Below, one piece after another: positions 6,681 through 61,792 of a stretch of 64,000 bases of DNA. Both the position numbers and the translations under genes were made by a program. Source of the stretch: Hysterangium stoloniferum (lineage: Eukaryota > Basidiomycota > Agaricomycetes > Hysterangiales > Hysterangiaceae); contig WHVD01000029.1 in the NCBI GenBank assembly GCA_015178975.1, positions 62,001-126,000 of the forward strand, written 5' to 3'. The stretch's first letter is position 1. Each line of letters starts with the position of its first letter. The notes under the pieces were generated by a model. The model was not told where the DNA came from. It ran no database searches and was given only the letters and a program-made list of their open reading frames with translations.

Positions 6681-6820
6681 CTGACAGGCTTTTGCATGAA
6701 AATCATATGACAATGTTGATTGTTTGCACTTGTATATATTTTTCAACATGTCGTGTGATCATGCTGTGCTAAAGTATAAGAAGAAGGGCTCTCACCACTA
6801 AGATTCTTCTAATTTCAACT

Positions 6821-7825
6821 ATGCATCCTCTGTCCCCTGCTGTCCAGCATGAGATCCTTTCTCCATTTGATGCTGGTCATTCTGCCAAACATATTTCAGT
6901 TTCTACTGGATATAACTTTGCTACTATCTCTAGACTTCACTCTAAACATCATTCCCACCTTTCTAAGTCCTCTGGTGGTCATCCTTCCAAACTCTCTATG
7001 GCCAACATCTGTTTTGCACAACATCTTATCAGCTCTGGGAAGGCTGATACAGCTGTAGATGCAACAAGGGCACTTTGCACTATCACCAACCAGTCACTCA
7101 ATCCTCAAACAGTACATCATGGACTCAAGGCAGCTGGGATGAAGCCTGTGGTAAAGAAGGAAAGGCCTCTTCCTTCTAAGAAGCATAGGAAGGAGGGGAT
7201 GGACTTTGCTTTGATACATCAGAATTGGACTGTGGAGGACTGGAAGACAGTGGTGTGGTCTGATGAGACAAATCAATAGGCTGAGGTCAGATGGTAGGAA
7301 GTGGGTGTGGAAAAAGGCAGGGGAGGGCTTGAGTGACAGGCTGGTTGAGAGAACCCTGAAGTTTGGTGGTGGATCTTTGATGATATGGGGGTGCATGCTG
7401 TGGGGAGGGGTTGGTTATGTATCCAAGATTGATGGAAGGATGGATGGGGATCTCTACATACAGATTCTAGAGTATGACCTGCAAGCCAGCCTCAGGATTA
7501 TGGTAAATCTGCAGATGATGTCATCTCCAGCAGGATAATGACCCCAAGCATACCTGCAAGAAGGCCCAGAATTGGTTCCAAGAAAATGGTTTCAGGGGTT
7601 TCTCATGGCCAGCACAGTCTCCTGACCTGAATCCCATTGAACACTTATGGAATCACCTGAAGAGGAGGTTGGCAGGGTATGAGAATGCATCCCAGGAGAT
7701 GGAAGAGCTTTGGGAGAGGGTAGTGGAGGAATGGTACAAGATTGGTGTGCCAGGATTTGATTGAAAGTATGCCTAGGAGGGTTGCAGATGTATTCAAGGC
7801 AAAGGGTGGCTATACCAAGTACTAA
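6821..7825 (+). pseudogene. Tc1-type transposase, frameshifted
   Basis: Starts MHPLSPAVQHEILSPFDAG, an N-terminal helix-turn-helix region. The DDE core is visible across frames. The first Asp is in VVWSDET (near 7252-7272), the second in QQDNDPKHTCK (near 7530-7560), and the Glu in SPDLNPIEHLW (near 7618-7652). The end reads ESMPRRVADVFKAKGGYTKY with a stop at 7823-7825. A one-base loss near 7275 and a second frame change near 7500 break it, and another shift lies before the C-terminus. All catalytic residues survive, so inactivation is by indels rather than loss of the active site. Length across the frames is about 335 residues, normal for Tc1. Confidence 0.85.
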
Positions 7826-17079: not shown

Positions 17080-17731
17080 GGATGGTTGTGAATGAGGGAG
17101 TGAGCACGAGCGAAAAATGGATACCCGGTCGTCCTCAGCCTTTAATCTAATCGTCGTTGCCCTGTACCTTCCACCTTATAAAACAGATCATTACCCTCAA
17201 ATCCTTTTATCTGATAGTGACCGAACTTTATCTGATAATCGCATGATCATCCTGTAACCGGTGTCGGAAAATCTGATCTGGGGTTGGCGCGCATGGCCCT
17301 GTGGTCATGTGAATGTCGATCGCTTAGGTGACACGAAAAGCATATGGACACTTTTGCTATACGTAACCATTATGAGGGCATCGATACTGATTTGCCTTAC
17401 TTGAGAAGAATCTAAAGAAAATCCCTCCTTCTACGATGTCCGTGTGCACCAAGGACCATAGATGTTAGTCATCTGACGAGACCGTGTGACAAAATAGTCT
17501 GAACAGGTACGTTTAGACGCCGAAAAATATCGCGTGTCCGATCCGATTCGTCCGAGACATAAGCATAAGTTAATTTTTATCAGATTATAAAATAAAGTTT
17601 ATCAGATCATCTAATTTTTATCAGATAGCTCAATTCCTGCCAACGGGAATTACCTATAACCACCCCAGTTTTGCTCTCCTCAACAACCGCCTCCTCCCTC
17701 CCCTCTCCCTTCTGACAGAGTATTCTTCGCC
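17080..17731. promoter_or_regulatory. Divergent FET3/FTR1 promoter with iron-GATA motifs
   Basis: This 652-bp region lies between the start codons of the ferroxidase (minus) and the permease (plus). It contains four exact ATCTGATAA motifs: 17230-17238 on plus, and 17577-17585, 17599-17607 and 17618-17626 on minus. One near match, ATCTGATAG, is at 17209-17217. The consensus (G/A)ATC(T/A)GATAA is the known site of fungal iron-sensing GATA repressors (Sre1/SreA/Urbs1/Fep1 class). Sites form two clusters, one near each gene, fitting joint repression under iron sufficiency. TATA-like sequences are ccttataaaac (17174-17184) and ttataaaataaag (17586-17598). Confidence 0.8.
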
Positions 17732-19394
17732 ATGGCTCGTAATCTCTTCAGTATTCCCATATTCTTCATCGTCTTCCGAGAAACTTTAGAGGCATCCATT
17801 ATCGTCTCAGTCCTTCTAGGTCTCGTCGAACAAATCGTCAGCACCGGCCCATCTTCACACTCGGCACCCCTTCCCGCTACGACGCCGTCTCTACCACAGG
17901 GTTCCAAGGATGAAAAATCACAAAGCCCAGAGGAAAAACCCGAATCTACCGACTCCAACAGCACAAGTGAAGAAGAAAGCCGCCTCCGAACCGCGAAACT
18001 TATCAAAAAGTTGAGAATGCAGGTTAATTCTTTCCTTCGTCATCAAAATCATCATGCTCTAAATACACCGATCTTATTAGATCTTCTTTGGTGCGATCTC
18101 TGGCTTCTTTATTTCACTTGCTATCGGTGCTGCCTTCATCGCCGTCTGGTTTACCCAGGCATCCGACCTGTGGGCGAAGAGTGAAGATCTTTGGGAGGGC
18201 ATATTCAGCTTAATCGCGTCTGTAGCAGCGTTTTCGTCGCGCTCCACCACCTACTGACGTCATTCCCGGGTAGCGCAATCCTCATCTTCGTCATGGGCAT
18301 CACGATGCTCAAAATGGATCGCGCGAAGGCCAAGTGGAAGGTCAAGTTGCAAAATGCCTTCGAAGGGAAGAGTCAGTGGCGCTTTCATTTTAATTAGAGT
18401 TTTTAATGTTGCTAACACAACGCCACAGACGTAGATGGCGGTGCCAAGACTGGAAAATGGGTTCTATTTGCCCTTCCTTTCATTACTGTGCTCAGAGAAG
18501 GCATGGAAGCCGTCGTCTTTGTTGGAGGCGTAAGTCAGGAGTTACACACTAGTATGGCAATTTGCATTGACACCCGATAGGTCGCCCTCGGTCAATCTGC
18601 CACTGCAATTCCCATCGCCGCTATAGTAGGGATCATCTGTGGTCTTATAATTGGATACGTCATCTATGCCTTCTCGTCCAGAACCAGTAAGTGATTTAAA
18701 TTGTAAGTGAAGCACTTATTTCGACGTTGTAATACAGGTTTGTCGATCTTCCTCATCGTCATGACAAACTTCCTTCTCCTTATCGGTGCGGGTCTTTTCT
18801 CGAAGGCAGTTGGCTTCCTTGAAATACATGCCTTCGTGAAACTGTAAGTTCTCACGGTCCACGTCGGTAAAATGGTTTAAAGCGCCGAGGCTAGGACGCT
18901 CCCAGATTAAAAACCATTTTACTGATATAGCTGATTAACTGCCATTCTCATGCGTTTTTACAGAGTTGGCGCTGAAGTAGACGACACTGGAGGTGATGGC
19001 CCGGGTTCATACCAAGTCACAGGCAATGTGTGGCACCTCGACTGTTGCAATCCCGAAAACCACTTCGATGGCCAAGGCTGGAGTATTTTTGCAGCATTGG
19101 TAATTTTCCCCTTGTTCTTTGAATGTATGCCTGCCCTAATATACATATACCACATCCACAGTTTGGTTGGACAAATAGTGCTTCCCTCGGAACGGTACTT
19201 TCGTACGTCTTTTATTGGTTTGCGGTCATAGCAACGCTTGTGTATTTGAAGTGGAAAGAGGTGAGTCTATCCTATAATATATCTTCTGAACGTGTTTAAT
19301 ATTATTCTAGGGTCGAATTTCTCTCTTCAGTCGGGAGTCGGCCCTCGGAAGGGATCGCAGAATTAGGAGGGAGAATAAGGCGTCTGCAGCTTGA
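17732..19394 (+). CDS. FTR1: High-affinity iron permease (Ftr1-type), 9 exons, 385 aa
   Basis: Plasma-membrane permease that imports Fe3+ made by the ferroxidase partner. Exons: 17732-18022, 18081-18217, 18274-18371, 18429-18529, 18581-18686, 18738-18843, 18964-19099, 19162-19260, 19311-19394 (1158 nt, phases consistent). Two REXXE iron-binding motifs are present: RETLE (16-20) in the first membrane segment and REGME (198-202). The remaining membrane segments include FGAISGFFISLAIGAAFIAV, IFLIVMTNFLLLIGAGLF and SYVFYWFAVIATLVYLKW. A Pro/Ser/Glu-rich hydrophilic loop follows the first segment. The GW-x-IF motif and C-terminal DCCNPE region match basidiomycete Ftr1. The intron after 18217 was chosen so that SLIAAILIFVMG joins in frame. 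It is head-to-head with the ferroxidase gene. Confidence 0.93.
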
Positions 19395-43087: not shown

Positions 43088-44787
43088 TGTCACGTTATAT
43101 ATCTTATCAAACATGCGAATACAGTATATGACGACACCTTTTCTTCATATACTTGGTCATGACAGCCCCCCGCTGTGATGCCTAAACTTATTGACAGTCG
43201 CCATCCCACCATAACGTGGTCCTAGTGTATTTCAGACGTTCAAACGCCCTCGCAAATTATACTAATAACCAATTTAACGAACCTGGAGAAAAAATGCTTT
43301 ATCATGACAGCACCCGGCTGTCATGGCTAACCCGTCAATAATTGGCGGGAGTAACTGCAATCCCATTTATCGCAGTGCATCATTTTAATGTGGATCAGGA
43401 AAGGTGGAAAAGCTGAAGATCAGTGTTGTTAGTACCTCAATGGTAGGTCGGTGGTCGCGATGGGCAACAACGCCACAGACGCCCAAGGCACGCCTTATTG
43501 ATTCTAGGGATTAATGTTATTTAACGAGCAACACTGCTTTAACGCTATCAGGACGATGGATAGGGCAACACCCATGGAACAAGTCTAGGCCTCGCAAATA
43601 GAAATATGCTGGGGATTTTGAATGTGGATTGTGTTCGTACCTCAATGGTGACTTATTAATCATGGCGCCATCACCAAAGCCTGTTGATGTCCACCAATAG
43701 ATTCACATTGACCATTAGTTCTCCCTCTAAATTACAACGACACACGAATCGTTCAACTTGAATACTACTACCAAGGGACGTTAGTTATAAGATTCGAAGA
43801 ATTTTGATAAAATGGCTTTCCCTCTACCTTTACAAAGAAATAAATGATTGTTCCGAAACCAGTTGGCAGTCTAAAATGAAAAGGGGGTATGGACCCTGAC
43901 TCCAAACCGCTTGTCAAACCTTCCAGCGTCCAGGGACACATCAAACCAAGATCCCGGCATCAATCGAACCATGAGGACACAGAAACCTCGTGCCCATTGC
44001 ACAACCCGACGATTTAACGCCAAAGGCATTCACACCCCAAAAATTTTCGTGTATTATACACTCGCATAAGAATAGGGTAATTGTCAAGTATTGGGTTGGA
44101 GAAGTGGGCTCATCAGCCTAAGTCCTCTATGTACTCCACCTGAATCCGAACATGGTATGTACGAGATGAACCATTTAAAAGGTAGTACTTTGTCATTCTT
44201 ATATTATTCCCGACTACTCCCCAGTTAGTGGATATCATTCATTTTTTTTCAGTCGAGTGTGGTGTGATTGTATATCTAAATCTATTTTTACTTTTTCTTG
44301 TTTTGAGCTCAGCTTGATGCAATAGCGCTATTTTCTGATGCTAATCTTTAATGAATCACCTTAGAAACCGGAACGGTTGTGAAGACCTTGTGGATCCTAT
44401 TGTGATTACATACTCTTAGCCCACATAAAACTTACTAGGCAAAAGATACTAGCTTGCAGAGGGTCGTGGCCCAAATAAAAATATCGGAACATGAAAGCTG
44501 GAATTCGCACCACAAAGGGACCTCTCGATTGGGGGAGTCAAATGGCTGATGGAGGTCAAAGTGGTATCCAAATGCGTATTGTTCTTTCCACACGTCACTC
44601 TGGCGCCACTGAGCTCAAGCACATAAAAGCTTGAACGACCTTGCGTTATTCACGGCACTTAATTCCACCCCATATTGACGACCGCTACAAATTTGCGCCA
44701 GAAACATCACTGTCCGTGTCATTCCACACCGCCACAGACATTTTCACCTAACGAGAAACCCGTCGAGCCATTCGCTTACTTATCCAA

Positions 44788-45891
44788 ATGCCAAAAATCA
44801 AGATCGAATGTCAATATTTCTCTGTGACGCCTTTGCCCCGTGAGAATGTTGCATACACCATCCATGACGACGGGCGGAGGCACAAAGACGAGGAGAAGTA
44901 TTACAACATGGATGTACATCAAATGATGTCAGACATTCACGAATCCAAGCACCGCATGGTTAGGTTGGAGATAGAGATTATTGATCGACTGTCTCCGGCA
45001 TTCGGGAACCACATAGGATTGGCACTTAATAGTTTGCTCCGGAAACTCCCAATATTGACGCACCTATTCGTATCTGGTTGCGACCTTTATGACTATGGGT
45101 TGTTGTCGCCCCGTCCTTTCATCCCATCTCTAGAGGTTTTGAGTTCCGATTTTCTCCCGTCGCAGATATTCCAAACTTTTTTAAGACATAATCCGACTAT
45201 AAGAGCATTCATGAATCCGAATGTAGACACAACCGGGTTCGTCCGTCCTGGAGCGAAATTACCAAAAGCTATTTTACCGATTCTCGACGAGCTTTCGGTG
45301 GACTATTCTCTCATAGAGTACTACCTATCTGGGCGGCCAGTAAAGAACGTAGCAGTATTGAACAGTCGTGGAGTGGAGGCAACGGGACTGGATAAGCTTC
45401 TTCTGCGGCCGCTCAGTCGAAGCCCTGCCGGCGGTGGGATAAGGGGTGTTGGTGGTGTTCTGTATTTCACGCTTGGGTGGCAATGTGTGCTGTCTAAACT
45501 GCACAAGGCGATGCCCAACTTACAGCACTTGACGTTAAAAGCGCTAGGTCCAATGGCGGTGGTTGACGAAACAGTCAGTTTTTCGATTTTCCTACTCGGA
45601 TGATTAAAATATGTCTCTTTGTAGTTCGACTTTTGGATGGAAGAAAAGTGGGGAAATGACTTCAACGTGCTTCTCAAACTCCGAACAATCACCGCAGTCA
45701 CAGACAGGTTCCTTACCCAACGTGATCAGTCCATTATTGTTGGTAGATGGTTAGCTTCTAAGAGTAAAACATTGGAGTCGATAACTTTTGATACGGAAGT
45801 CCGGTCATCATGGCGGAGCTGCAAAACCTGGGACCAAAATGCTCAACCCCTCCCCTGGCAGGTCACGCCACGTGACTTTAGCTCTTTTTAA
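44788..45891 (+). CDS. RNI-like (F-box-type LRR, no F-box seen) protein, paralog 1, 350 aa
   Basis: Exons 44788-45573 and 45625-45891 with a 51-bp intron (GTCAGT...TTGTAG) between DET and FDFW. The protein has leucine-rich repeat-like strands (LPILTHLFVSGCDL, FIPSLEVLSSDFL, MPNLQHLTLKALG, LESITFD). These resemble the C-terminal half of Agaricomycete F-box/RNI proteins. No F-box is visible at the N-terminus, and there is no signal peptide or membrane segment. Function is unknown. RNI surfaces usually bind other proteins. Its paralog at 55849 differs almost only by amino-acid-changing substitutions. The stop codon lies inside the tail of a LINE inserted on the other strand, so the C-terminus may have been altered by that insertion. 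Start chosen at the first in-frame ATG after a conserved leader. Confidence 0.75.
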
Positions 45892-46810
45892 ATACATTTA
45901 TATACCGCGTCGCACAACTAAGGTATAGTGTAGTTAAAAGATGATAATATATTAATATATTCGACAGATGTTATCGAGTCTGGATATTGAGTTGCCGGCT
46001 CCACAACATAGCATTAGTGAGCCGCTGACTCGTTACACTGGAATGTGATGTAGTCGTCGGGAACCTTTACTAATATTATATTATATTACCAATACATAGC
46101 GGTTGGGAACAGGGACTCTAATGGTAGGTAGAGAAATGTATGTAGATGCCGGGGCAAGTAGGGGGGGGTATGAGGGTCAATTGTAAGGAAGGGGGGGGGG
46201 GAGGAAGAGAGGGAGAGATAAAAACCACAGGGGCTACGACTTGCCAAAGGCGTTGGAGGCGTCGATGAACTTCGCTAGGGCGGTGAGCCCTTTGTGGGTC
46301 CTGAGGATGGCGGAGGGGGACAGGTCTTGAGAGGTGGCGAGTAGGTGGCGGTGTTCTTCGTAGAGGGGGCACTCAGCTAATATGTGAAGGCGGGACTGAA
46401 TGGGTGATGTGCCGCAGGGGCAGGATGAGGGGAGGTCGGGGAGAAAACGGTGGTAGTAGGCGCCATAGAATCCATGGCCCGTGATGGCCTGGATGACGCG
46501 GGTGAGTGTGGCGGGGCCTTCCGTATTCCTTGTGGAACTTCGAAAGGTGCGGGGAGGGAGGTTTGTGTAGTGCAATGGCGGCAGCGTTGGTGTGAGGGAG
46601 GCCGAGCCAGTCTTTGCGCCAAAGGTTCAGAGAGCGAACCTTCACGCGCTCCAGGGTCCACGAAACGGTGGAGTGGAGGATTGGGGGATGTGAGTTGACA
46701 GCCTCTTTTGCAAGGGTATCAGCCGGTCGAGGCTGCGAGCGATAGAACATCGCGTTCGCGGATGACTTCTCCCATGTTGTAGGAGATGCTGTTCTGCTCG
46801 AGTTCAAGTG
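45886..46810 (-). pseudogene. LINE 3' end: RNase H, Zn-knuckle and 3' tail
   Basis: On minus, frames give an RNase H end (RPADTLAKEAVN near 46700-46735). A C-terminal zinc motif (CPCGTSPIQSRLHILAECPLY, as blocks CPCG, RLHILAECPLY, near 46370-46430) follows, as in fungal Tad/I-type LINEs. The last coding frame ends at 46234. The 3' untranslated part ends gcgacgcggtatataaatgt followed by atttaaaaa at 45886. The element is 5'-truncated near 46810, the usual state of LINE copies. The frame shift between 46373-46807 and 46234-46575 shows it is dead. Confidence 0.75.
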
Positions 46811-47103
46811 AGACCTCTTACTGCAAACTTACTAGCGCAGTATGGCGCCTATTGAGCAACTCCTAATGATACCGGTGTGATGAGCACGCACAGCATCAGG
46901 CGTACAAGTGTCTTATCGAACCTTTCTTTCCAGCTACAGAAGATGCGCCTACGAGCAGGATTGAAAAAAAAAACATCCTCAGCCAGGGTTGAATATCATT
47001 AGATGGATGTAGCAAACCAATGATGCGTCCCCCAACCTTGCTTGATCATCTGAATCGCTGCTTCCTTGTAGCACAAGAAAACGCCTCAGGGGCATTGATA
47101 TTA

Positions 47104-47387
47104 TAAACCCCATTTTTCGACGGTGGCTTCAGAGTAGATGCGCATTAGGCATCATATCACATCAGCAACACTGGTAACTAACGGCGCGCTATGGCCAATC
47201 CCAGCATTCGATACCATCTGATGTTTAGCCAAGGACGGTGCAATATTTCAGAAGAGCACCATTAATCAACTAGCGATGGGCATACCACATCAAGTCATCC
47301 AAGTTGCTCAACAGCAACTTTGACGAGATGTGTGGTACAGACTTATGCTACGTCGTCGACACGTTTTTATTGAGTATCATGTGGTCG
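47104..47387. other. Short gene-less stretch before SINE copy 2
   Basis: No recognisable gene. Its right end is the target sequence tgtgtatccacgtga into which the SINE-like copy 2 inserted. That target reads into a LINE endonuclease fragment on the other side. Confidence 0.35.
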
Positions 47388-47402
47388 TGTGTATCCACGT
47401 GA

Positions 47403-47955
47403 CAACGGCTCTCTTGTTCCGTGACCACCACCTGCCTCTAGGGTTGGGACCCCCATGCTCGTGGTAAAAGGACAGAGGCGGATGACAGCCAACAGGCTTG
47501 GAGAGCCTCTGAATTCACTGCTCTGTCAAAGTCGGCAGCCTTCAGCCGCACACCAGTGTCGCCTGCAGACCGTCACTGGCACCTCCTAAACCATGACTGC
47601 AGCCTGGCAGCGGTCTTTTCTTCCTACCCACCCCCGACTCCAGCATTCACTTATGCACTAGCAATGCAAGACTTCGGTGTGCCTGCAGCCATCGTTGACG
47701 CCTGTTAGCAGGATCTCGGGTTCTTCCTGGGGCTTCGGCCCAATTGGCATTCACTGGGCAAGTTCAGCACAATCACCTCTCTTTATTCGACCATCCTGCC
47801 AACCACCACTCGCTCCGACGCATCCGTCTACTTCCTCTTCATTCTCCCGTAGATACTATAGTAGCTATGCTCTATACGATGCTACGGAACCGCTATGTAT
47901 CTTAGTTATGCGACGCGGTATATAAATGTATTAAAAAAAATAAAAAAGAATAAAA
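47403..47955 (+). mobile_element. SINE-like retroposon, copy 2, perfect 15-bp TSD
   Basis: 553-bp insert flanked by tgtgtatccacgtga at 47388-47402 and 47956-47970, with an A-rich tail (47930-47955). Its 5' part matches copy 1 on the other strand. Its 3' part (aaccgctatgtat...ttagttatgcgacgcggtat) matches the 3' end of the LINE at 45886-46810. No tRNA-type A or B box was convincing, so the head may derive from another RNA. Confidence 0.82.
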
Positions 47956-47970
47956 TGTGTATCCACGTGA

Positions 47971-48169
47971 TTCCAGAGCTGCGGTGGATTTCTTCGAGTG
48001 GACGGTCACCCAGGGATTCTCCGTACTGAACGACCCAGAGTGCCCCACCCGTAGAGGCCACGCAAACCAATCCGACTCTGTACTCGACCTCACACTACCA
48101 AAGCTATGGCAAGCTGTAATAATGTCCACAAATCCAGCAGTATCATGGAATCATTGGAAGGCTTGCAGT
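47971..48169 (+). pseudogene. LINE endonuclease-domain fragment
   Basis: The plus frame PRDSRAAVDFFEWTVTQGFS, then LNDPECPTRRGHANQSDSVL, then DLTLP matches the apurinic-endonuclease-like N-terminal domain of fungal LINE pol proteins (F-x-x-W-x-x-x-x-G-x-x-LNDP, T-R-x-G, S-V-x-DLT). It is cut on the left by the SINE insertion and on the right by solo LTR-C. It is in the opposite orientation to the LINE 3' end at 45.9-46.8 kb. Confidence 0.6.
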
Positions 48170-48174
48170 GCCAG

Positions 48175-48818
48175 TGAAGGACCAGAAAACCTGCCAGGTC
48201 CTGGATCCCACTCTATATGTATTTATCTCTCTTTCACAGTATGACCCACTGACTGGGCCCTGCCTGGGTATCCCAGATCCCTTAGATGCTTGGATATCTT
48301 GTCCCAATCTATCCCTGAACCTGGTTAACATCTGGTTTATTATGTCCCCTGCACATGTTCCTGTTTTATCCCAGCCTTGTCCCTAGTATGGATACCCCTG
48401 TCTTATTTCCTGTTTGCCCTTTTTGTCTTTTTGTCCAACCAAATTGGTAGTACAATAATCTTTAATTCTATATAGCCTAGCCTATGCATGTACTTACAAT
48501 CCAATCAGAAAATCAACTTAGCATACCTCTAGCACCCTACCAGTTAATTTACAACTTTGTACCAGTGTATTCTTGGAACCTGCAGGTTGTCCCACCTGGC
48601 CCCTCCTGTCATTCTCAAAGTCTTTGGACTTCCCATCTCAACCATCTCTTATATCCCAAACCCCATGGGTGATTTGTTTTACCTTTGTCTGAAATAGGAC
48701 ATAACAATTGTGTGAGGGCACAGCACATATGTAAGCTAAAGCCAAGTCCTATGTGCCTGCCACCTGGAACCTCCATGGGCTTTTTCAAGAACCCTGCCTG
48801 TAAGCCCCAAGCTTAACA
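48175..48818 (+). repeat. Solo LTR, family C, TSD gccag
   Basis: 644 bp from TGAAGGACCAGAAAACC to CCCCAAGCTTAACA, flanked by gccag at 48170-48174 and 48819-48823. A TATA-like ctatatagcc, then aatcagaaaatcaacttag (48503-48521), and gtaagctaaagccaagtcc near 48732-48750 mirror the blocks of families A and B. Confidence 0.88.
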
Positions 48819-48829
48819 GCCAGCTTTTA

Positions 48830-49330
48830 CTAGAGCAATTTATTGCCACATCTAAAACATATGTATATATTGAAAGAAATATGCCTGTTGATGTGTTACT
48901 GCTGCAGAGAAAGCAGTAAGAGCACACCTTTGCTGGCATTCCAAGTGCACAGAATATCCCCCATTTAGGTCAAAAATATTGACAAAGTCAGGGTGACACA
49001 AAATGCTGCATTTTTTTTTCCTTCCATCCAAAACAACTGGCAACACCATACACATACATATATAGGGGCCAAATTAAAAATTTCTGTCTGGAGGTGGTAC
49101 TTCTGCAGTGTTGACAGGGGATCTTGCATATCATATTTTTTTGTGGCATGCATTGTTTTTGGGATGGTTAACATTGCCACAAAAAATGATGAACATTCTG
49201 ATAGAAGTATGTGATGTACTTAAAATTAAATACTGTCAGAGGATCTTGTAATGAAATCTGGGGGCATTGAGATGAAGTTTGGATAAAGATCTCCTAGGGC
49301 AGTTCATCTCCTTTTTCAACTTTTTATATG
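48830..49330 (-). pseudogene. BTB/POZ gene fragment (N-terminal and middle part)
   Basis: On minus it matches the intact BTB gene at 60278-61249. Near 49250-49285 is the N-terminal segment (aagtttggataaagatc on plus; the intact gene has aagtttgggtaaaggtc). At 48880-49190 is the middle (gcagagaaagcagtaagag and gtcagggtgacacaaaatgc). The segment encoding the copper-free BTB core is partly deleted, and stops are frequent. Confidence 0.65.
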
Positions 49331-49334
49331 AAAA

Positions 49335-49545
49335 TGCAAATTGTGGATCATGCCCAGGGAGGTTAATGCATGAGGTTATCCATGTACACCTACATAAACT
49401 ATCAGCAAGGCTATCATGTCAGAAGGTGATTCAATAATTGACACATTGATTAACACATACATACTCTTATTACAAGTCTATTAAACTCTTGTAGATTGTG
49501 TATTACAATAAGTCAACTCGTACAATTTTCAATAGATACTGTATA
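49335..49545. repeat. Interspersed repeat shared with 23193-23430
   Basis: Diverged copy sharing blocks tcatgtcagaaggtgattca, gacacattgatt and ttgtagattgtgtattaca with 23193-23430. No element type can be assigned. Confidence 0.5.
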
Positions 49546-49549
49546 ACAG

Positions 49550-50389
49550 TGTTAGGATACACACACAGGCCGGGTTTCCAGAGAAACCCGCGGGATATCC
49601 GGTAGGACTAGGCTTCAGCTTATAGGCTGTGCCCTCGCTAGATCGTGTTGTCCAATTTTAAACGGACGGATGGGGATCCCGGGAAGTCCGGGCGGGGTTC
49701 ATGGGTCGTAGGTTGTAAGTCGGGGGTCGTGGGTCGTAAGTCGGAGGTCGTGGGTCGTGAGTCGAGATAGTTGAGAGAGATAGATGTGCCAGAGCCCGCG
49801 GGCTCCAACTAGTGTGAGCGATGTGAATTAAGTAAGGTTTTAGAGTGGAAAATGTTATTAGATTACTGGGGGGAATCTAAGCTAATTTTCTGACTGGATT
49901 GTATGTACAACATCTGCCAGTTTATATAGACCATGGAGTGAATGACATACCAAATCCAGTAATGGCGAAACGAAACTAACAAAACATGAAACGGGAATAG
50001 TAAACACCAAATTGGTGTTAGGAACGGAACGGAACAGAGTGGAGTCCGCATTGTGACAAAGCATAACCCATAACAGGAAATGGAGCGGGAGCGGAGTCCT
50101 AAATCGTGACAGGTCATTTGACTAAAATGGGAATGGGGCTCGATTAGAGCGGTGACGGGATTCTAAGCGGGATCCGGTGACTGACGCATGGGACGAAGAT
50201 GGACATAGACAGAGACGGAGTCCGGGGGAAGTCCAGTGACTGATATGTGTCTTAATGAGGTTGAACGTAACTAGTCTTGACGTAATGGAGTCCGGGCGGG
50301 AAATCCTATAAACAGATGATTGGTGCTTGTAGCACGTGGGGGCATATGGGTTAGTGCCCGGAGTCCGGTGGGGTTGTCCAGTCATAACA
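49550..50389 (-). repeat. Solo LTR, family B, TSD aacag
   Basis: 840 bp in reverse orientation from TGTTAGGATACACACACAG to TTGTCCAGTCATAACA, flanked by aacag at 49545-49549 and 50390-50394. Both ends are well preserved. Confidence 0.93.
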
Positions 50390-50499
50390 AACAGTTGCAG
50401 CTTGTCCAAGAAGGCTGGTGTATGCTATATTCGAAATATTAGTATGTTGTATCCTCAAAAGTGCTCCGAATCGAAAGATACCTTGATATTGATCTACAC

Positions 50500-51235
50500 T
50501 TAAATTGTGTGGTGCATGGTGCCAATTTTAGAAGTGGCAGCAAATATTGCACTAGCTGGTCCTGCAAGGTTCCAAACTGTGACAAGATGAACTCGTGGAG
50601 GCCATTGATGCTTGCCATAACCTCGGAATTTTCTAAAGCTAGGGGATGATTCCTTTGGAGTCATTTGTGAGGAAGAAAAGCCTTGAGAAAGTTGCTTGAC
50701 TTTACTTGTTGCTGTGGTTCTCACATGGGTGAAGTGATGTCCAATATTTGCATGTTTATGGACAAACTCCCTGATTGTGAATAAAGACTGGTAAGCTCAG
50801 ATACATTATTGGTTTTGATAACTTTTAACCACTTTGGTGGCAGATGATTATTACATTTCCCTCCCAAAAGTCAACTATTGAGTCACTGATCCATCTATCT
50901 GCCTCACCTTATGAACTAATTAACCAGACCTGACACTCTGACTTGTCATGTGTGTGAAGTGGGGTTAGATTTTAACATCTCAAGCAGGAGGAGCATTGGC
51001 ATCATGCATCGATCAGCTTAAAAAAACCCACAGAAATATAGTGGTAATCAGCAACTACATATTCTGATTCTTTTGAAGATTTATACACTATCTTTGACTT
51101 GTCAAATATCATTCACAGACCAAATTCGAAACAGTCTGAGCATTTTTTCAGTACTCTATATCAAAACAAACAAGGATTTGGAATATTGAGGCAAACCTTC
51201 TCCATAAATTAAGGAAGACAAATTCAAACAATTTA
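50500..51235 (+). pseudogene. BTB/POZ gene fragment (C-terminal part plus 3' flank)
   Basis: The plus frame NSWRPLMLAITSEFSKARG matches the intact protein (KLWRPLMLAITSEFSKRPLG). The following bases, through ccctgattgtgaataaagac, match its C-terminus and stop region. From 50815 to 51235 the sequence follows the 3' flank of the pseudogene at 59615-60045. It lies in opposite orientation to the N-terminal fragment at 48830-49330, from which a solo LTR now separates it. Confidence 0.65.
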
Positions 51236-51824
51236 AATAAAGTCCTAAACATTTCAGTTAATTTTCCGGTACTTATTGATTTCATGAGTTGCAAGTGACA
51301 AAGTGTCAGGCAGAACTAAACAATGATAACTTCAAAGAAATTTTAAAAAATTCAGATAGTATCCCAGAAAATTCACAGGTTTTCTATGTCTGAGGATAAC
51401 GATTGACTCAATGTCTAATTATAAATCTGGCTGCAGTCTCTCAAGTCAGGTAGACAGACCCTGAGCATGTGGTACCAATCCAAAATAACTTGAGAAATAA
51501 CAGGAACTCTGAAGTTTCTGTTTCTTAACACCTGATTGCTACAAAGGGTTTTTTTTGTTTGTGCATAAGCTACTGATCCTTAGTGTCATAGACACACTAC
51601 AGGACACTGTTCTACTTATCACCAGAGCTGTATTGCTCATATGTGGCTTTGACAGACACTTGGCTTGAATCTGACTGTTGGAGACAAATACAACCTGGAC
51701 AATATTATCAGCTCAACTTCCTTCAATCCATTATCAGAGCCTCAGAGGAAGACAAGTGTGATCAGTGAGTATATGCCTCCAAATTTACCCTAACACCACC
51801 TCTTAATTCATCTGCAGGGCTGGT
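51236..51824. other. Gene-less tract
   Basis: AT-rich and without a recognisable domain or repeat. Its right end supplies the ctggt target site of the LTR-B that follows. Confidence 0.35.
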
Positions 51825-53343
51825 TGTTACAACCGGAAATCCCACTGGACTCCAGGCACTAACTTATATGTACCTGCACCCTATACGCACTGATTATCAG
51901 TTTACCGGAATACCCACTGGACTCTGTATGTCAGACCTGTCCACGCTCGACCTTCGTTACTTCATGTACATATCAGTCAGTGGAATACCCACCAGACTCC
52001 ACTCCTGTCTATCTCTGACCCTGTGCCACACACCAGTCACCAGACTCCACTCGGAAAACCCGACAGCTCTCTAACTGAGTCCCATTCCCATTATGGTCAA
52101 ATGACCTGTCACATTTTGGACTCCACTCAACTCTGTTCCATTCCTAACACCAAGTTTGGTGTTTATTTATCTTGTTTCATGTTTGCTAGTTTAGTTTTCA
52201 TTATTACTGGATTTGGTATGTTATACATTCCACAGTCTATATAGTCTGGCAGATGTTGTACATACAATCCAGTCAGAAAATCAGCTTAGATTCCCCTAGT
52301 AATCTCAAGTACATTTTCCGCTCTAATCTCCTCTTTGAAACACACCACTTTACCTCGTTGGAGCCCATGGGCTCTGACCCATCTATCACTCGACCTCTGA
52401 CTTATCTATCTCGACCCCCAACTCATCTCCACCCGACCCCTTGACTTCCACAGACTTCCTGCAGTTGACTCTCCAACCGCTCAACCCACAAACACCACCC
52501 AGACACCCCAGGTGTGAAGGATAGGTCACATAGGAGGTGTGACTAAAGGCTCTAAGGCTTAGCCCTTAGCCGCTTTATAATGCCATTATTTCCTTTATGT
52601 TTTATATTTTTTATTCTCTTTTTATCACTCATAAATACGGGTCATACCCCCTTTTTATTAGTTCGAGAGTCCATGTATGCTTGTGGGCACTCTCACCCAC
52701 AAGAAGTATGCGTATGTCACAGCAGTAGTCACACGATACAAACTCAGACACTTTTCAACCCCGACAACCATCACCTGCACACGCAAGTACTGGTTCGGGG
52801 TCTTGTCTAAAACAAACCTTCTGTCTATCTCTCTTCCTAGATCTACAGTAACTACACTTCGCACTGAAACAGTCGAAGTCAGTTACTATTATTTGACTCG
52901 ACTTCAACCTCTTGCTTCGCGCGGTAAGAATATCCATCGTAGCTCACTTTCTTAGGATATTCTCTCTTTCTCTCGCAATATATACTTTCTCTCCTCTACT
53001 TGGCCATTGGCCTAGCTAGCTACGCAGTCAGATCGTACCGTTAGGTCAATCTGCTCTTGTAATCATCTACCGATCACACCTTAAAGGTCGATCATAATCT
53101 ATATTTTGACTACCTAAAACTACTAGTCAATTGTATTTCATACTATCGCTAGTCGATAACAATTGCACATTGAGTGGTAAACTACTTGACCCTTTACACC
53201 AGGATTCCCGTCCACCCATTTGAAATTGGACAAGACGATCTCGCGAGGGTGCAGCCTATAAGCTGAAGCCAAGTCCTACTGGCTTTCCCATGGGTTTCTC
53301 CAGAAACCCTCCAATAAGCTCTGTGCATGACTCTTATGTAACA
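51825..53343 (+). repeat. Solo LTR, family B, TSD ctggt, split by LTR-D
   Basis: Starts TGTTACAACCGGAAATCCC and ends CTCTTATGTAACA, flanked by ctggt at 51820-51824 and 53344-53348. With the nested LTR-D and its duplication removed it is about 828 bp, the family-B length. The 3' end differs from other B copies and resembles the truncated copy at 24419, so these two form a subgroup. Confidence 0.88.
52513..53198 (+). repeat. Solo LTR, family D, TSD ccagg, nested in LTR-B
   Basis: 686 bp from TGTGAAGGATAGG to TTGACCCTTTACA, flanked by ccagg at 52508-52512 and 53199-53203. It retains CpG (for example cttcgcgcggtaag), so it is recent. It shares attagttcga and cttgtgggcactc with the short copy at 11209-11631. 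Confidence 0.9.
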
Positions 53344-53348
53344 CTGGT

Positions 53349-53757
53349 CACATTCCAATCGGGATAACATCAAAGTGGTTTTAGTTAGGTGAAAATGTAT
53401 GTAACATGCAATATATAATGCCTTCTGAACATACATGATTTCCATCCAATCTATGGCACAGCATTGGTCATGCAAGCTGTGGTACTGGAAAGGGTGCTTC
53501 TTCTTGTATGACACAGCACATCTATCAATGTCACTCACTGATCATCAATTGGGTCCAAATAACTTACTTTTATACACTCTTTCTGTTAAGCTTTCATGGT
53601 GCTGTTCCTAGACCATATAACTTTCTATTTGTCTGAGTGAGGTGACACATTATGCCACACAATTTGGGCAGATTATTACCAAGGTATATTTAGATTCTGA
53701 GCCTTGATGATGATGCTCAATATAGTGACCTTTCTTTCGAACAGTGTACACCACCCT
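53349..53757. other. Gene-less tract
   Basis: No gene is recognisable. It ends at the TAT beside the left inverted-repeat arm of the composite element. Confidence 0.35.
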
Positions 53758-55848
53758 TATCACTGGAAAAACCCCTCTCTCCAAAAGATTTTAGGATCTG
53801 TAGTAGAGCCCCATCTTATATAAACTCCAATAATCTCTATTGGATCCTTATAATAGTTAAAATTGGTTAAGGATCCAAAAGGTAGGTGGAGGGTGATCAG
53901 GTGTACATAGGATTATTTAAGCATCAACCATATCATTAAATATAAACTCCTTCAATTTTGTATAGTCCAATGAGATTCTGTATCCTTTTATCTTTCCTGT
54001 GACTTGTCAGAGGATGATCCAATTAAAAATCCACAAAACTCCTGGATGTAGTTGCAGGATTTAACATCACATAGAACATGTGTGTAATCAATCAATTTAA
54101 AATCCCATTCACATCCCTGACTTTGATGGAATTACAAAATGATATAGAATCTGTTAGATGGTCCACAATTGAGTTAAACTCTCCTTTGTTCCAATATAAA
54201 CTCCCTTCAAATACTTGGTCATGACAGCCCCCCGCTGTGATGCCTAAACTTATTGACAGTCGCCATCCCACCATAACGTGGTCCTAGTGTATTTCAGACG
54301 TTCAAACGCCCTCGCAAATTATACTAATAACCAATTTAACGAACCTGGAGAAAAAATACTTTATCATGACAGCACCCGGCTGTCATGGCTAACCCGTCAA
54401 TAATTGGCGGGAGTAACTGCAATCCCATTTATCGCAGTGCATCATTTTAATGTGGATCAGGAAAGGTGGGAAAGCCGAATATCAGTGTGTTAGTACCTCA
54501 ATGGTAGGTCGGTGGTCGCGATGGGCAACAACGCCACAGACGCCCAAGGCACGCCTTATTGATTCTAGGGATTAATGTTATTTAACGAGCAACACTGCTT
54601 TAACGCTATCAGGACGCATGGATAGGGCAACACCCATGGAACAAGTCTAGGACTCGCAATAGAAATATGCTGGGGACTTTGAATGTGGATTGTGTTCGTA
54701 CCTCAATGGTGACTTATTGATCATGGCGCCATCACCAAAGCCTGTTGATGTCCACCAATAGGTTCACATTGACCATTAGTTCTCCCTCTAAATTACAACG
54801 ACGAACGAATCGTTCAACTTGAATACTACTACCAAGGGACGTTAGTTATATAATTCGAAGAATTCTGATAAATGGCTTTCCCTCTACCTTTACAAAGAAA
54901 TAAATGATTGTTCCGAAACCAGTTGGCAGTCTAAAATGAAAAGGGGGTATGGACCCTGACTCCAAACCGCTTATCAAACCTTCCAGCGTCCAGGGACACA
55001 TCAAACCAAGATCCCGGCATCAATCGAACCATGAGGACACAGAAACCCTCGTGCCCATTGCACAACCCGACGATTTAACGCCAAAGGCATTCACACCCCA
55101 AAAATTTTCGTGTATTATACACTCGCATAAGAATAGGGTAATTGTCAAGTATTGGGTTGGAGAAGTGGGCTCATCAGCCTAAGTCCTCTATGTACTCCAC
55201 CTGAATCCGAACATGGTATGTACGAGATGAACCATTTAAAAGGTAGTATTTTGTCATTCTTATATTATTCCCGACTACTCCCCAGTTAGTGGATATCATT
55301 CATTTTTTTTCAGTCGAGTGTGGTGTGATTGTATATCTAAATCTATTTTTATTTTTTCTTGTTTTGAGCTCAGCTTGATGCAATAGCGCTATTTTCTGAT
55401 GCTAATCTTTAATGAATCACCTTAGAAACCGGAACGGTTGTGAAGACCTTGTGGATCCTATTGTGATTACATACTCTTAGCCCACATAAAACTTACTAGG
55501 CAAAAGATACTAGCTTGCAGAGGGTCGTGGCCCAAATAAAAATATCGGAACATGAAAGCTGGAATTCGCACCACAAAGGGACCTCTCGATTGGGGGAGTC
55601 AAATGGCTGATGGAGGTCAAAGTGGTATTTAAATGCGTATTGTTCTTTCCACGCCTCACTCTGGCGCCACTGAGCTCAAGCACATAAAAGCTTGAACGAC
55701 CTTGCGTTATTCACGGCACTTAATTCCACCCCATATTGACGACCGCTACAAATTTGCGCCAGAAACATCACTGTCCGTGTCATTCCACACCGCCACAGAC
55801 ATTTTCACCTAACGAGAAACCCGTCGAGCCATTCGCTTACTTATCCAA

Positions 55849-56943
55849 ATGCCAAAAATCAAGATCGAATGTCAATATTTCTCTGTGACGCCTTTGTCCC
55901 GTGCGAATGTTGCATACACCATCCGTGACGACGAAAGGCACACTGACGAGGAGAAGTATTACAACATGGGGGTACATCGAATGATGTTAAACATTCTCGC
56001 ATCCAAAGACCACATGTGTAGGTTGGAGATAGAGATTATTGATCGACTGTCTCCGGCATTCGGGAAACAAATAGGATTGGCACTTAATAATTTGCTCCAC
56101 CAACTCCCAATATTGACGCACCTATTCGTATCTGGTTGCGACCTTGATGACTATGGGTTGTTGTCGCCCCGTCCTTTCATCCCATCTCTACAGGTTTTGA
56201 GTTCCGATTTTCTCCCGTCGCAGATATTCCACAGATTTTTAAGACATAATCCGACTATAACAGCATTCATGAATCCGAATGTAGACACAACCGGGTTCGT
56301 CCGTGCTAAAGCGAAATTACCAAAAGCTATTTTACCGATTCTCGAAGAGCTTTCGGTGGACTATTCTCTCATAGAGTACTACCTATCTGGGCGGCCAGTA
56401 AAGAACGTAGCAGTATTGAACAGTCGTGGACTGGAGGCAACGGGACTGGATAAGCTTCTTCTTGTGCCGCTCAGTCGAAGCACTGCCGGCGGTGGGATAA
56501 GGCGTGCTGGTGGTGTTCTGTATTTCACGCTTGGGTGGCCATGTGTGCTGTCTGAACTGCACAAGGCGATGCCCAACTTACAGCACTTGACGTTAAAAGC
56601 GCTAGGTCCAATGGCGGTGGTTGACGAAACAGTCAGTTTTTCGATTTTCCTACTCGGATGATTAAAATATGTCTCTTTGTAGTTCGACTTTTGGATGGAA
56701 GAAAAGTGGGGAAATGACTTCAACGTGCTTCTCAAACTCCGAAAAATCACCGCAGTCACAGACAGGTACCTTACCCAACGTGATCAGTCCATTATTGTTG
56801 GTAGATGGTTAGCTTCTAAGAGTAAAACATTGGAGTCGATAACTTTTGATATGGAAGTCCGGTCATCATGGCCGAGCCGCAAAACCTGGGACCGAAATGC
56901 TCAACCCCTCCCTGACAGGTCACGTGACCTTATCTCTTTTTAA
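55849..56943 (+). CDS. RNI-like protein, paralog 2, 347 aa
   Basis: Exons 55849-56631 and 56683-56943, with an intron identical in sequence to that of paralog 1. It has the same leucine-rich strands and length, one codon shorter near residue 30 and with a different C-terminal end. By hand codon alignment, 39 codons differ by replacement and only 2 silently (AAG/AAA and CTG/CTT). Changes are spread over both exons and are mostly in charged or polar positions such as H/D, K/E, R/T, Q/H. No frame-breaking change is present, so both copies look maintained. No known function. An RNI scaffold suggests ligand or substrate recognition, which is an inference. The stop again lies in the LINE tail. Confidence 0.75.
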
Positions 56944-57840
56944 ATACATTTATATACCGCGTCGCACAACTAAGGTATAGTGTAGTTAAAATATGATAAT
57001 ATATTCGAGATCGAGTCTGGATATTGAGTTGCCGGCTCCACAACATAGCATTAGTGAGCCGCTGACTCGTTACACTGGAATGTGATGTAGTCGTCGGGAA
57101 CCTTTACTAATATTATATTATATTACCAATACATAGCGGTTGGGAACAGGGACTCTAATGGTAGGTAGAGAAATTTATGTAGATGCCGGGGCAAGTAGGG
57201 GGGGGAATGAGGGTCAATTGTAAGGAAGGGGGGGGGAGGAAGAGAGGGAGAGATAAAAACCACAGGGGCTACGACTTGCCAAAGGCGTTGGAGGCGTCGA
57301 TGACTTCGCTAGGGCGGTGAGCCCTTTGTGGGTTCTGAGGATGGCGGAGGGGGACAAATCTTGAGAGGTGGCGAGTAGGTGGCGGTGTTCTTCGTAGAGG
57401 GGGCACTCAGCTAATATGTGAAGGCGGGACTGAATGGGTGATGTGCCGCAGGGGCAGGATGAGGGGAGGTCGGGGAGAAAACGGTGGTAGTAGGCGCCAT
57501 AGAATCCATGGCCCGTGATGGCCTAGATGACGCGGGTGAGTGTGGCGGGGCCTTCCGTATTCCTTGTGGAACTTCGAAAGGTGCGGGGCGGGAGGTTTGT
57601 GTAGTGCAATGGCGGCAGCGTTGGTGTGAGGGAGGCCGAGCCAGTCTTTGCGCCAAAGGTTCAGAGAGTGAGCCTTCACGCCCTCCAGGGTCCACGAAAC
57701 GGTGGAGTGGAGGATGTGTGTTGACAGCCTCTTTTGCAAGGGTATCAGCCGGTCGAGGCTGCGAGCGATAGAACATCGCGTTCGCGGATGACTTCTCCCA
57801 TGTTGTAGGAGATGCTGTTCTGCTCGAGTTCAAGTGAGAC
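56937..57840 (-). pseudogene. LINE 3' end, second copy
   Basis: Copy of 45886-46810 within unit copy 2, with the same RNase H end, zinc motif and 3' tail (gcgacgcggtatataaatgt followed by atttaaaaa). A base lost near 57303 (gatgacttcgc against gatgaacttcgc) and a stop change near 57525 damage it further. Its presence in both units shows that the LINE inserted before the duplication. Confidence 0.75.
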
Positions 57841-58799
57841 CTCTTACTGAAAACTTACTAGCGCAGTATGGCGCCCATTGAGCAACTCCTAATAATACCG
57901 GTGTGATGAGCACGTACAGCATCAGGCGTACAAGTGTCTTATCGAACCTTTCTTTCCAGCTACAGAAGATGCGCCTACGAGCAGGATTGAAAAAAAAACA
58001 TACTCAGCCAGAATTGAATATCATTAGATGGATGTAGCAAACCAATGATGCGTCCCCCAACCTTGCTTGATCATCTGAATTGCTGCTTCCTTGTAGCACA
58101 AGAAAACGCCTCGGGCATTGATATTTATATCATTTTGTAATTCCATCAAAGTCAGGGATGTGAATGGGATTTTAAATTGATTGATTACACACATGTTCTA
58201 CGTGATGTTAAATCCTGCAACTACATCCAGGATTTTTGTGGATTTTTAATTGGATCATCCTCTGACAAGTCACAGGAAAGATAAAGGGATACAGAATCCC
58301 ATTGGACTAAACAAAATTGAAGGAGTTTATATTTAATGATATGGTTGATGTTTAAAGAATCCTATGTACACCTGATCACCCTCCACCTGCCTTTTGGATC
58401 CTTAACCAATTTTAAATATTATAAGGGTCCAATGGAGATTATTGGAGTTTATATAGGATATGGCTTTACTACAGATCCTAAAACATTTTGGAGAGAAGAG
58501 TTTTCCCGGTGTATCAGGCAACCGCGACCGTTATACCGTGTCATCTTACACCAATATAATGACCGGACTTCGATCTGACGAAATCCATTGGAAAATGGCA
58601 TCGTGGACAAACTAAATTTCGAGACAATGGCACAGCTATTTTTAGCTACACAGAGAGTCCCCTTTTGCCACTCGGTCAACCTCCCATTGTTTTTACCTTT
58701 CCTATTGTTCCCCTCACATATATAAACCCCTTCCCTACTGCCAGACTTCAGTCCGTTATATCTATGAGACCTAACTACAACATGTAGCGATATCTTTTC

Positions 58800-60277: not shown

Positions 60278-61249
60278 TTATTCACAATTAGGGAGTTCAT
60301 CCATGAACGTGCGAATCTTAGACATTACATCACCTCCATCCATGGGAGAACCACAGGCGCAAGTATAGTTGAAGAACATTCTCAGGACTTCCTTCCCCAC
60401 AAAATGACTCCAAAAGGAATCATCCCCTAGCGGTCGTTTAGAAAATTCAGAGGTTATAGCAAGCATCAATGGCCTCCACAATTTCATCATCTTGTCGCGG
60501 TTGATCTTGTCACGGTTGGAAGCCTCACAGAACCAGTTATTGCAATTTAGTGCCGCTTTTAAAATTGATTTAAAGGGATCATCTTCAAGAAAATAAACCA
60601 GGCTGTCGATACGTTGCTGCCGCAAAGAAAGCAGTAAGAAAGCGTCTTTGGCGGATGCTCCAAGCGCATAAAGGGTATCCGCGTATCTAGGGTCTGTAAT
60701 ATTGGGCAACGTCAGCGTGACACGAAATGCTGCCTTTTTTTCCTCCTTCCATCCAAAACGACTGGCCAGACCATACACATGCACGGGGTCAGAGTCCAGA
60801 AATTCTTTTTTGAGGAGGAATTGCCGTAGAATTGACAGGGCACCTTCTATATCATATTTGTCTGCGGCAAGTATTGTTTCTGAGAGCGTGTCTATGTTGT
60901 CAAAGCTTGGCAATGACACGGGGTATATCAGACACAGAAGCTTAGCCATAACAACACTGCTTTCCGTGACATCGGCCGACGGAATGACGGCATTGGCTGG
61001 CGGTGAGACAAAGGCTGACTCAGGCTGGGGAACGGCCAACATGGCTGCAAAAACTGAGGAAGATGCTTGCAGAAATAGACGATGTACTTGGAATCGAGTG
61101 CCATCGGCAGATTTTATTATGAAATCCGGTGGGGGTGTTGAGAGGAAGTTTGGGTAAAGGTCATTCTCTGCCATTCTGAAAATGGCCAATATCTTGTTGG
61201 GTCGGATTCGGGTCGGGGCTTGCGTGATAATACTGGGTACGCTATTCAA
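60278..61249 (-). CDS. BTB/POZ-domain protein, fungal type, 323 aa
   Basis: Single open frame. An N-terminal BTB/POZ fold is shown by PPPDFIIKSADGTRFQVHRL, then FLQASSSVFAAML (about residues 40-72), the D-x-x-(I/F)-x-S-x-D-x-x-x-F-x-VH-(K/R)-x-x-L pattern. A loop PANAVIPSADVTESS and the helical LCLIYP...ETILAADKYDIEGAL follow. The C-terminal helical part is shared by large BTB families in Agaricomycetes, where BTB mediates dimerisation or cullin binding. No DNA-binding or Kelch domain is present. Two starts are possible. The second Met (61174, MAENDLYPNF) suits the family better because residues 1-25 look non-conserved. It is the only intact member of the three copies here. Confidence 0.8.
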   Translation of the reverse strand: MNSVPSIITQAPTRIRPNKILAIFRMAENDLYPNFLSTPPPDFIIKSADGTRFQVHRLFLQASSSVFAAMLAVPQPESAFVSPPANAVIPSADVTESSVVMAKLLCLIYPVSLPSFDNIDTLSETILAADKYDIEGALSILRQFLLKKEFLDSDPVHVYGLASRFGWKEEKKAAFRVTLTLPNITDPRYADTLYALGASAKDAFLLLSLRQQRIDSLVYFLEDDPFKSILKAALNCNNWFCEASNRDKINRDKMMKLWRPLMLAITSEFSKRPLGDDSFWSHFVGKEVLRMFFNYTCACGSPMDGGDVMSKIRTFMDELPNCE

Positions 61250-61792
61250 AAGAAAGGTCAGTCAGTATATTGTGATATGGTTGTACGAAACTATGGAAAT
61301 ATACTCGCGAATATGTCAGTAGTAGCTGTAACCTCAGCTCTGTAACGGTAAAAGGAGACAAAATTTTCAAACTCAGACCATAACAATAGAGCGTCTATCA
61401 TATGTGGACGCGTTCTACACGTCTCGCCTGACTTCAACATATCAAGCTGTGCTCGAAATATATAATCTGCGCAAGTTGTGTGGCATACGATGCCACCTAC
61501 TAGTCATTGAATGTGTTATTTCTTGTCGTTATTAAACCACTCTGAACGTCCGTCAAGCTTGGAACATGACCCACGTTGTAGATCAGGCTGTTAGGTGAAG
61601 GCGGCGGCCAAGGCATAGTATGACTTATCGTGTTAACAAAACTCGGACCCACGGTGACTTCGATCAAAGTCACGTCCACTAGTTTCCTGGTAGTGGGATC
61701 TCTATGAAGATCTGTGTGGGAACATTATGTAAGGCGCCTATTCTTCATTGGTTGTGACGAAGGGGCGTCGCTGAAAATTGCTCACAGCCCTC
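61250..61792. promoter_or_regulatory. Divergent intergenic region BTB / HIR1
   Basis: 543 bp between the start of the minus-strand BTB gene and the plus-strand HIR1 start codon. It presumably holds both promoters. A reverse CCAAT (attgg, 61748-61752) lies 41 bp before the HIR1 ATG. No other element can be named. Confidence 0.4.

Follow-up and report, generated by a model that had tools for sequence, protein, structure and literature searches.

A recently duplicated orphan gene of the fungus Hysterangium stoloniferum whose two copies differ mainly by amino acid replacements

Introduction

Fast-changing proteins encoded by duplicated genes are known from several quite different systems, and here we compare with them a pair of genes (genes 1 and 2) that lie in two copies (A and B) of a 3.9-kb unit of Hysterangium stoloniferum DNA. 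This fungus is ectomycorrhizal and belongs to the Phallomycetidae (PMC7550596). The window analyzed is a 64-kb stretch of the 793-kb contig C212 of the 111-Mb assembly, and coordinates given without a contig are positions within it. The F-box substrate adaptors of SCF ubiquitin ligases in nematodes and plants have fast-evolving C-terminal domains under positive selection (Thomas 2006, as cited in PMC3984280); they resemble the Hysterangium genes in being duplicated, and in the adaptors it is the protein-binding domain that is selected, but no F-box was found in the Hysterangium pair and database searches show no relation to F-box proteins. The heterokaryon-incompatibility genes het-d and het-e of Podospora likewise form a small duplicated family of fast-changing proteins, in which residues of the recognition repeat domain are under positive selection (PMC1805685). 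Their products are described as carrying WD40 repeats (PMC1805685) and a NACHT domain (PMC4986451), whereas Pfam shows neither in the Hysterangium proteins. The small serum protein genes of snakes are also young duplicates with little-changed noncoding DNA, with reported KA/KS (replacement to silent) ratios of 1.74 and 1.54 and intron divergences (KN) of 0.065 and 0.049 (PMC6609765); these are unrelated animal proteins, and the reference there was introns, whereas in Hysterangium it is flank and repeat DNA.

The Hysterangium pair shows the mark of accelerated evolution after duplication, a replacement rate above both the silent and the noncoding rates. The evolutionary pattern is known elsewhere, and what differs is the protein itself, an orphan in which no F-box or nucleotide-binding oligomerization (NOD) domain was found. 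In comparison with the ribonuclease inhibitor-like (RNI-like) or leucine-rich repeat (LRR) proteins, such as RanGAP, SKP2, NXF1, and ribonuclease inhibitor, no LRR motif was found in it by Pfam, and its structure models are of low confidence. In published surveys, fungi are reported to be without LRR-domain receptors, LRR-bearing adenylate cyclases apart (PMC2939053), and fungal NOD-like receptors to be without LRR motifs (PMC4986451).

Replacement changes between the two genes

Units A and B lie 11 kb apart in the same orientation, and each contains one gene with a single 51-nt intron (Table 1). An earlier note, made from the letters of the window, had placed the genes at 44788-45891 and 55849-56943; these limits hold, with exons and intron now placed in both. 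In the public annotation they are BU17DRAFT_64708 (350 amino acids) and BU17DRAFT_87599 (347 amino acids), which are 100% and 86% identical, respectively, to the gene 1 protein. The stop codon and 3′ flank of gene 1 are supplied by a downstream dispersed repeat, and the last ~14 codons are best excluded from the analysis, being of dispersed-repeat origin with an edge common to an otherwise unlike locus on contig C46. The altered C-terminus that the note reported is present, but it sits at this repeat junction (from about 45848 on) and is to be counted apart.

The noncoding parts of the two units differ at 44 of 2872 bases (1.5%), and in the 1.6 kb upstream, where about 25 differences had been claimed, we find 21 substitutions and five one-base gaps over 1642 aligned bases. 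Exon 2 differs at 12 of 261 bases and the 3′ flank at six of 322; the corresponding values for the other parts are given in Table 1. Codons 1-320 of the alignment (gene 1 codons 1-321) include 37 with replacements and two with silent changes, and all 347 aligned codons include 45 and three, respectively, in line with the 39 and two first counted in ~350 codons. Both length changes in the coding sequence are in-frame; one falls in the repeat-derived tail, and the one noticed earlier near residue 30 is real (3 bases at codon 29).

When the 48 base changes of the first 320 codons were scattered randomly in 20,000 simulated trials, a mean of 9.8 silent codons resulted, and two or fewer were obtained in 0.17% of the trials. 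The counted ratio of replacement to silent substitution rates (dN/dS) between the two genes is 2.4-2.6. The earlier note had asked for a codon-model estimate, and a model written for the present analysis gives values of about 4 in this recent pair. Over the full length the estimate is 4.07 (p = 0.0015); restricted to the first 320 aligned codons it is 4.21 (p = 0.0045), and exon 1 by itself yields 3.97 (p = 0.0074). A whole-gene ratio near 4 is unusual and is a common mark of conflict or recognition. With a third, older copy of the gene (on contig C65; see below) as outgroup, the two recent branches have a ratio of 5.6-6.8 (p = 0.0003-0.0011 for the departure from 1), and the long branch has one close to 1; a free-ratio model cannot separate the two short branches, to which it assigns 2.2-2.6 and over 300.

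The repeat-derived DNA that forms both ends of the unit serves best as an internal neutral reference; 32 of its 1752 bases have changed. Replacement sites (43/740) have changed at ~3.2 times this rate (odds ratio 3.3, p = 5e-7), and silent sites (5/220) are indistinguishable from it (p = 0.60); if the proximal upstream DNA and intron (6/798) are used as the reference, the odds ratio for replacement sites is 8-9. More than one base is changed in 8 of the 39 altered codons among the first 320. The single-change codons by themselves comprise 29 replacement and two silent changes (P = 0.0097 by simulation), with an odds ratio of 2.2 against the repeats (p = 0.004). These p-values are not those of a blind scan, because the pair was picked out by its pattern. 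The codon likelihoods, the repeat-derived reference, and the single-change codons all agree with the strong diversifying selection first proposed, and positive selection on the duplicated pair is, on these codon comparisons, very probable and well supported.

Position of the changes and nature of the protein

Gene 1 has a hydrophobic residue at only five of the 37 changed positions, compared with 134 of the 282 unchanged ones (p = 7e-5), and charge is altered (D/E against K/R) in 22 of the 37 replacements, in line with the earlier claim that the changes favor charged and polar residues. The avoidance of hydrophobic positions suggests that a folded protein is kept while its surface changes. The densest stretch is codons 17-58, with 14 of the 37 replacements. 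On the secondary structure predicted by the better of two poor models (mean pLDDT, the predicted local distance difference test score, 46 and 38), 16 changes fall in helices, five in strands, and 16 elsewhere; the helix changes lie on one face of this low-confidence model (permutation p = 0.012).

An RNI-like nature had been proposed for the protein. A repeated strand-helix pattern in these low-confidence models suggests an RNI/LRR-like fold. Pfam finds no LRR motif in the family proteins, and a Foldseek search with the better model gave a mixed list in which nothing reached E<=0.001. Sequence searches of Pfam and of solved structures gave no lead on the identity of the proteins. None of the three proteins matched an F-box in Pfam at E<=10 (the HMMER filters drop most matches above about 0.1), and none matched NACHT or NB-ARC at the same threshold. 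Visual inspection of the N-terminus (MPKIKIECQYFSV) reveals no hydrophobic run long enough for a signal peptide.

Copying of unit A into a foldback element

Unit B interrupts the tip of a foldback element, a high-copy palindromic repeat with arms of about 437 bp and a 20-nt loop, whose uninterrupted form is found, for example, at C54:49455-50367 and C312:556319-557213. Dispersed repeats run on past both ends of unit A but stop at the junctions of unit B, and we conclude from these two features that B was inserted and has A as its source. Double-strand breaks are described as having hotspots at palindromes (PMC4245961), and on the natural reading B would have arisen by repair of a broken hairpin tip that copied unit A. 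The earlier note had allowed that assembly errors might account for the differences, and the layout speaks against this: the units lie on one long contig, both are sharply bounded and their surroundings are unrelated, and the repeat into which B is inserted exists elsewhere in uninterrupted form, so mis-assembly or a haplotype error is unlikely. Spread of the gene driven by repeats was also considered and rejected, since only three gene-carrying copies were found although both flanks match dispersed repeats.

Table 1. Coordinates of the two units, their genes, and the interrupted foldback element
Feature	Position	Strand	Remarks
Unit A, source copy	43143-47105	+	3966-column match to unit B, 96.5% identity; dispersed repeats continue beyond both ends, to 43087 and 47403
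Distal upstream part, dispersed-repeat matches	43143-44040	.	Fragments on C301, C551, and C59 at 70-81%; neutral reference, 15/895 changed
Gene 1 proximal upstream	44041-44787	+	6/747 bases differ from B; overlapping stretch 532/663 identical to C65 copy
Gene 1 exon 1 (protein P0001, BU17DRAFT_64708)	44788-45573	+	Open frame; 44/783 aligned bases differ from B
Gene 1 hypervariable N-terminal segment, codons 17-58	44836-44961	+	Contains 14/37 replacements; length change at codon 29
Gene 1 intron, 51 nt, GT...AG	45574-45624	+	0/51 differ from B; 47/51 identical to C65 copy
Gene 1 exon 2	45625-45891	+	Last ~14 codons, from about 45848, repeat-derived
Downstream dispersed repeat	45848-47105	.	At least 68 genome matches; edge common to C46; 46234-47105 (17/857 changed) is neutral reference
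Foldback left arm, interrupted by B	53761-54197	+	Reaches the 20-nt loop of intact copies and enters it by a few bases
Unit B, inserted copy	54205-58129	+	Repeats end at junctions 54207 and 58125; placed in foldback element tip
Gene 2 exon 1 (protein P0002, BU17DRAFT_87599)	55849-56631	+	
Gene 2 intron	56632-56682	+	
Gene 2 exon 2	56683-56943	+	
Foldback right arm	58123-58518	-	Arm shortened by about 51 bp at B junction; 20-nt loop mostly lost

A third copy and the range of the family

The third copy, on C65, encodes a protein 52% identical over the matched stretch. It is spliced here at the homologous intron, and its 3′ end differs from that of the public model; all three copies have open frames and the same intron. 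No fourth gene copy was found in the assembly by DNA, protein, or intron-core searches, and the intron core with up to three mismatches matches only the three known copies. Among 5.8 billion proteins, no relative outside H. stoloniferum was found at E<=10 with a single-sequence or three-sequence profile query (three matches among 2717 and 5772 candidates, respectively), in a search that needs a few shared 5-residue words and that very distant relatives could escape. Literature searches on selection in fungal F-box or RNI-like proteins gave no title concerning this gene family, and text searches of the genome paper find Hysterangium once and F-box nowhere (PMC7550596).

At this older distance the upstream DNA and the intron are more alike than the coding DNA, which is ~71% identical where it aligns. 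Codons 17-58 were not aligned to the C65 copy by blastn, though the DNA just upstream aligns at 78-80%. The intron was rejected as a neutral reference, as it is too short and is more similar between the old paralogs than either upstream or coding DNA, so that it may be constrained. Translation into the intron would add a few residues, VSFSIFLLG for genes 1 and 2 and VCFSILLLG for the C65 copy, before a stop, so that a retained-intron form, or some other constraint, is possible.

An explanation for the pattern and the evidence against it

The explanation that we favor, and regard as evenly balanced between right and wrong when taken as a whole, is that a species-specific gene was copied and the surface of its product is diversifying in antagonistic coevolution. 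The gene would belong to a small family, so far found only in H. stoloniferum and there in three copies, whose product looks intracellular and, going by the strand-helix pattern of the models, would probably be an RNI/LRR-like solenoid. The comparisons show that the gene-carrying unit A was copied 11 kb away, into the hairpin tip of the foldback element. They also show that the divergence of the two proteins is about three to four times the neutral one and falls largely outside hydrophobic positions, with normal drift in the flanks and at silent sites. A break at the palindrome tip, repaired with unit A as the template, would be the origin of the copy. The solvent face would be a binding surface under pressure to differ, its fast-changing protein partner perhaps a determinant of nonself or a product of a parasite or mobile element. 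Such a mode would be akin to that of the repeat domains of adaptors and receptors, but in a protein that appears to be without an F-box or nucleotide-binding domain; its recognition role we infer from the pattern of change.

Several results weigh against this explanation or weaken arguments that had been brought for it. Relative to the proximal upstream DNA and intron, silent sites show a modest excess, with an odds ratio of 3.1 in the first 320 codons (p = 0.07) and of 4.0 over the full length (p = 0.015). The earlier note had stated that a dN/dS near or below 1 with more family members would refute the selection claim; such a ratio is not found in the recent pair, but it is found against the third copy, where dN/dS is 0.91-0.97 as counted and 1.13-1.18 by likelihood on the long branch. 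This value fits a mixture of constrained and fast positions, is by itself no proof of selection above neutrality, and tempers any claim of longer-term selection. The replaced sites are also not more often different in C65 (18/33, against 129/271 of the unreplaced sites, p = 0.47), so the hot residues need not coincide at the two time scales. The absence of stop codons, which had been taken as a sign against neutral decay, is real but weak, since 1.55 would be expected and none would occur in one fifth of random trials (P(0) = 0.20). The identical intron likewise carries little weight, as it is expected at this age: only 0.4-0.8 differences are expected at flank rates, and it lies inside a difference-free stretch (45497-45685).

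Alternative explanations

It is unlikely, though worth weighing, that the replacements predate the duplication. Locus A would then have highly divergent alleles under balancing selection, B would have been copied from a chromosome with a different allele, and the flanks would look young through free recombination between alleles. The resemblance of the duplication to a single copying event into a palindrome tip agrees with such allele capture, as does the finding that both lineages changed (of 33 comparable replaced sites, 10 can be polarized to gene 1, five to gene 2, and 18 to neither). However, the assembly yielded no additional copy resembling an allele, and silent sites in the coding sequence are also at flank level, which would need recombination near every selected codon.

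We are also doubtful that the changes were a one-off adaptive burst after duplication, that is, neofunctionalization for two fixed partners with no arms race. The excess does lie on the two recent branches, with an older-branch ratio near 1, but the N-terminal hypervariable stretch is also the most diverged from the older copy, which suggests recurrent change. Moreover, a tandem array of F-box genes elsewhere in the genome (C522:1541900-1560600) also runs near 1, as 20 pairwise comparisons among five of its genes gave dN/dS values of 0.64-1.63. This control used five of the nine F-box matches on C522, and three near-identical copies on C528 were uninformative. F-box genes are numerous in the genome, with at least 101 F-box-like matches (E<=0.01) among the 150 candidates scored out of 234. 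Fast evolution may reach beyond the duplicated pair.

An origin of the pattern in mutation, be it hypermutation of the locus, mutations that hit several bases at once, or conversion by a distant paralog, seems very improbable. The multi-base codons noted above could be read in this way, and the spectrum of changes is unlike that of the flanks. Hypermutation would also lift the silent sites, yet these are at flank level, and the signal survives with single-change codons alone. Gene conversion, which the earlier note had raised, is unlikely: no other paralog was found, the older one has a third residue at 18 of the 33 comparable replaced sites, and it shows no donor pattern at the 48 bases by which the two genes differ within the first 320 codons (C65 equals gene 1 in 18, gene 2 in 15, and neither in eight, with a gap in seven). 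Relaxed constraint or pseudogene decay would agree with the ratio near 1 against the older copy, but it is hardly credible given a dN/dS significantly above 1 in the recent pair, three open frames with the same intron, and conserved hydrophobic positions.

Other features of the region

A piece of a multicopper oxidase gene (Pfam Cu-oxidase) lies at 16007-16456 on the minus strand, near the start of an FTR1-like iron permease (17660-18181, plus strand; just under the Pfam cut-off), and we take the two to be a likely reductive iron-uptake pair. A Tc3-like transposase fragment (HTH_Tnp_Tc3_2, below the Pfam cut-off) is present at 6773-7276 on the plus strand, and about 2 kb past unit B an open frame on the minus strand (60281-61261) contains a BTB/POZ domain (E=1.2e-9). 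On C46, beside the shared repeat edge and just upstream of 246236, a short minus-strand open frame has an LRR-like look (LPNLRALNVKKFKLHG) and is perhaps a remnant of another gene.

Implications

It is a long shot that the protein is a stand-alone LRR/RNI-like recognition protein, diversifying in an arms race and duplicated by copying into a palindrome tip, and that LRR-based nonself recognition is here at its beginnings in a mycorrhizal fungus. Nonetheless, with an orphan and possibly LRR-like pair under such pressure, and fungi surveyed as being without LRR receptors, the locus is a concrete and cheap test candidate for recognition on an LRR scaffold. Other interrupted copies of the foldback element could reveal more captured genes. 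The pair is young, has a built-in neutral reference, and was copied in a known direction, so the number and order of the changes should be readable from a few strains.

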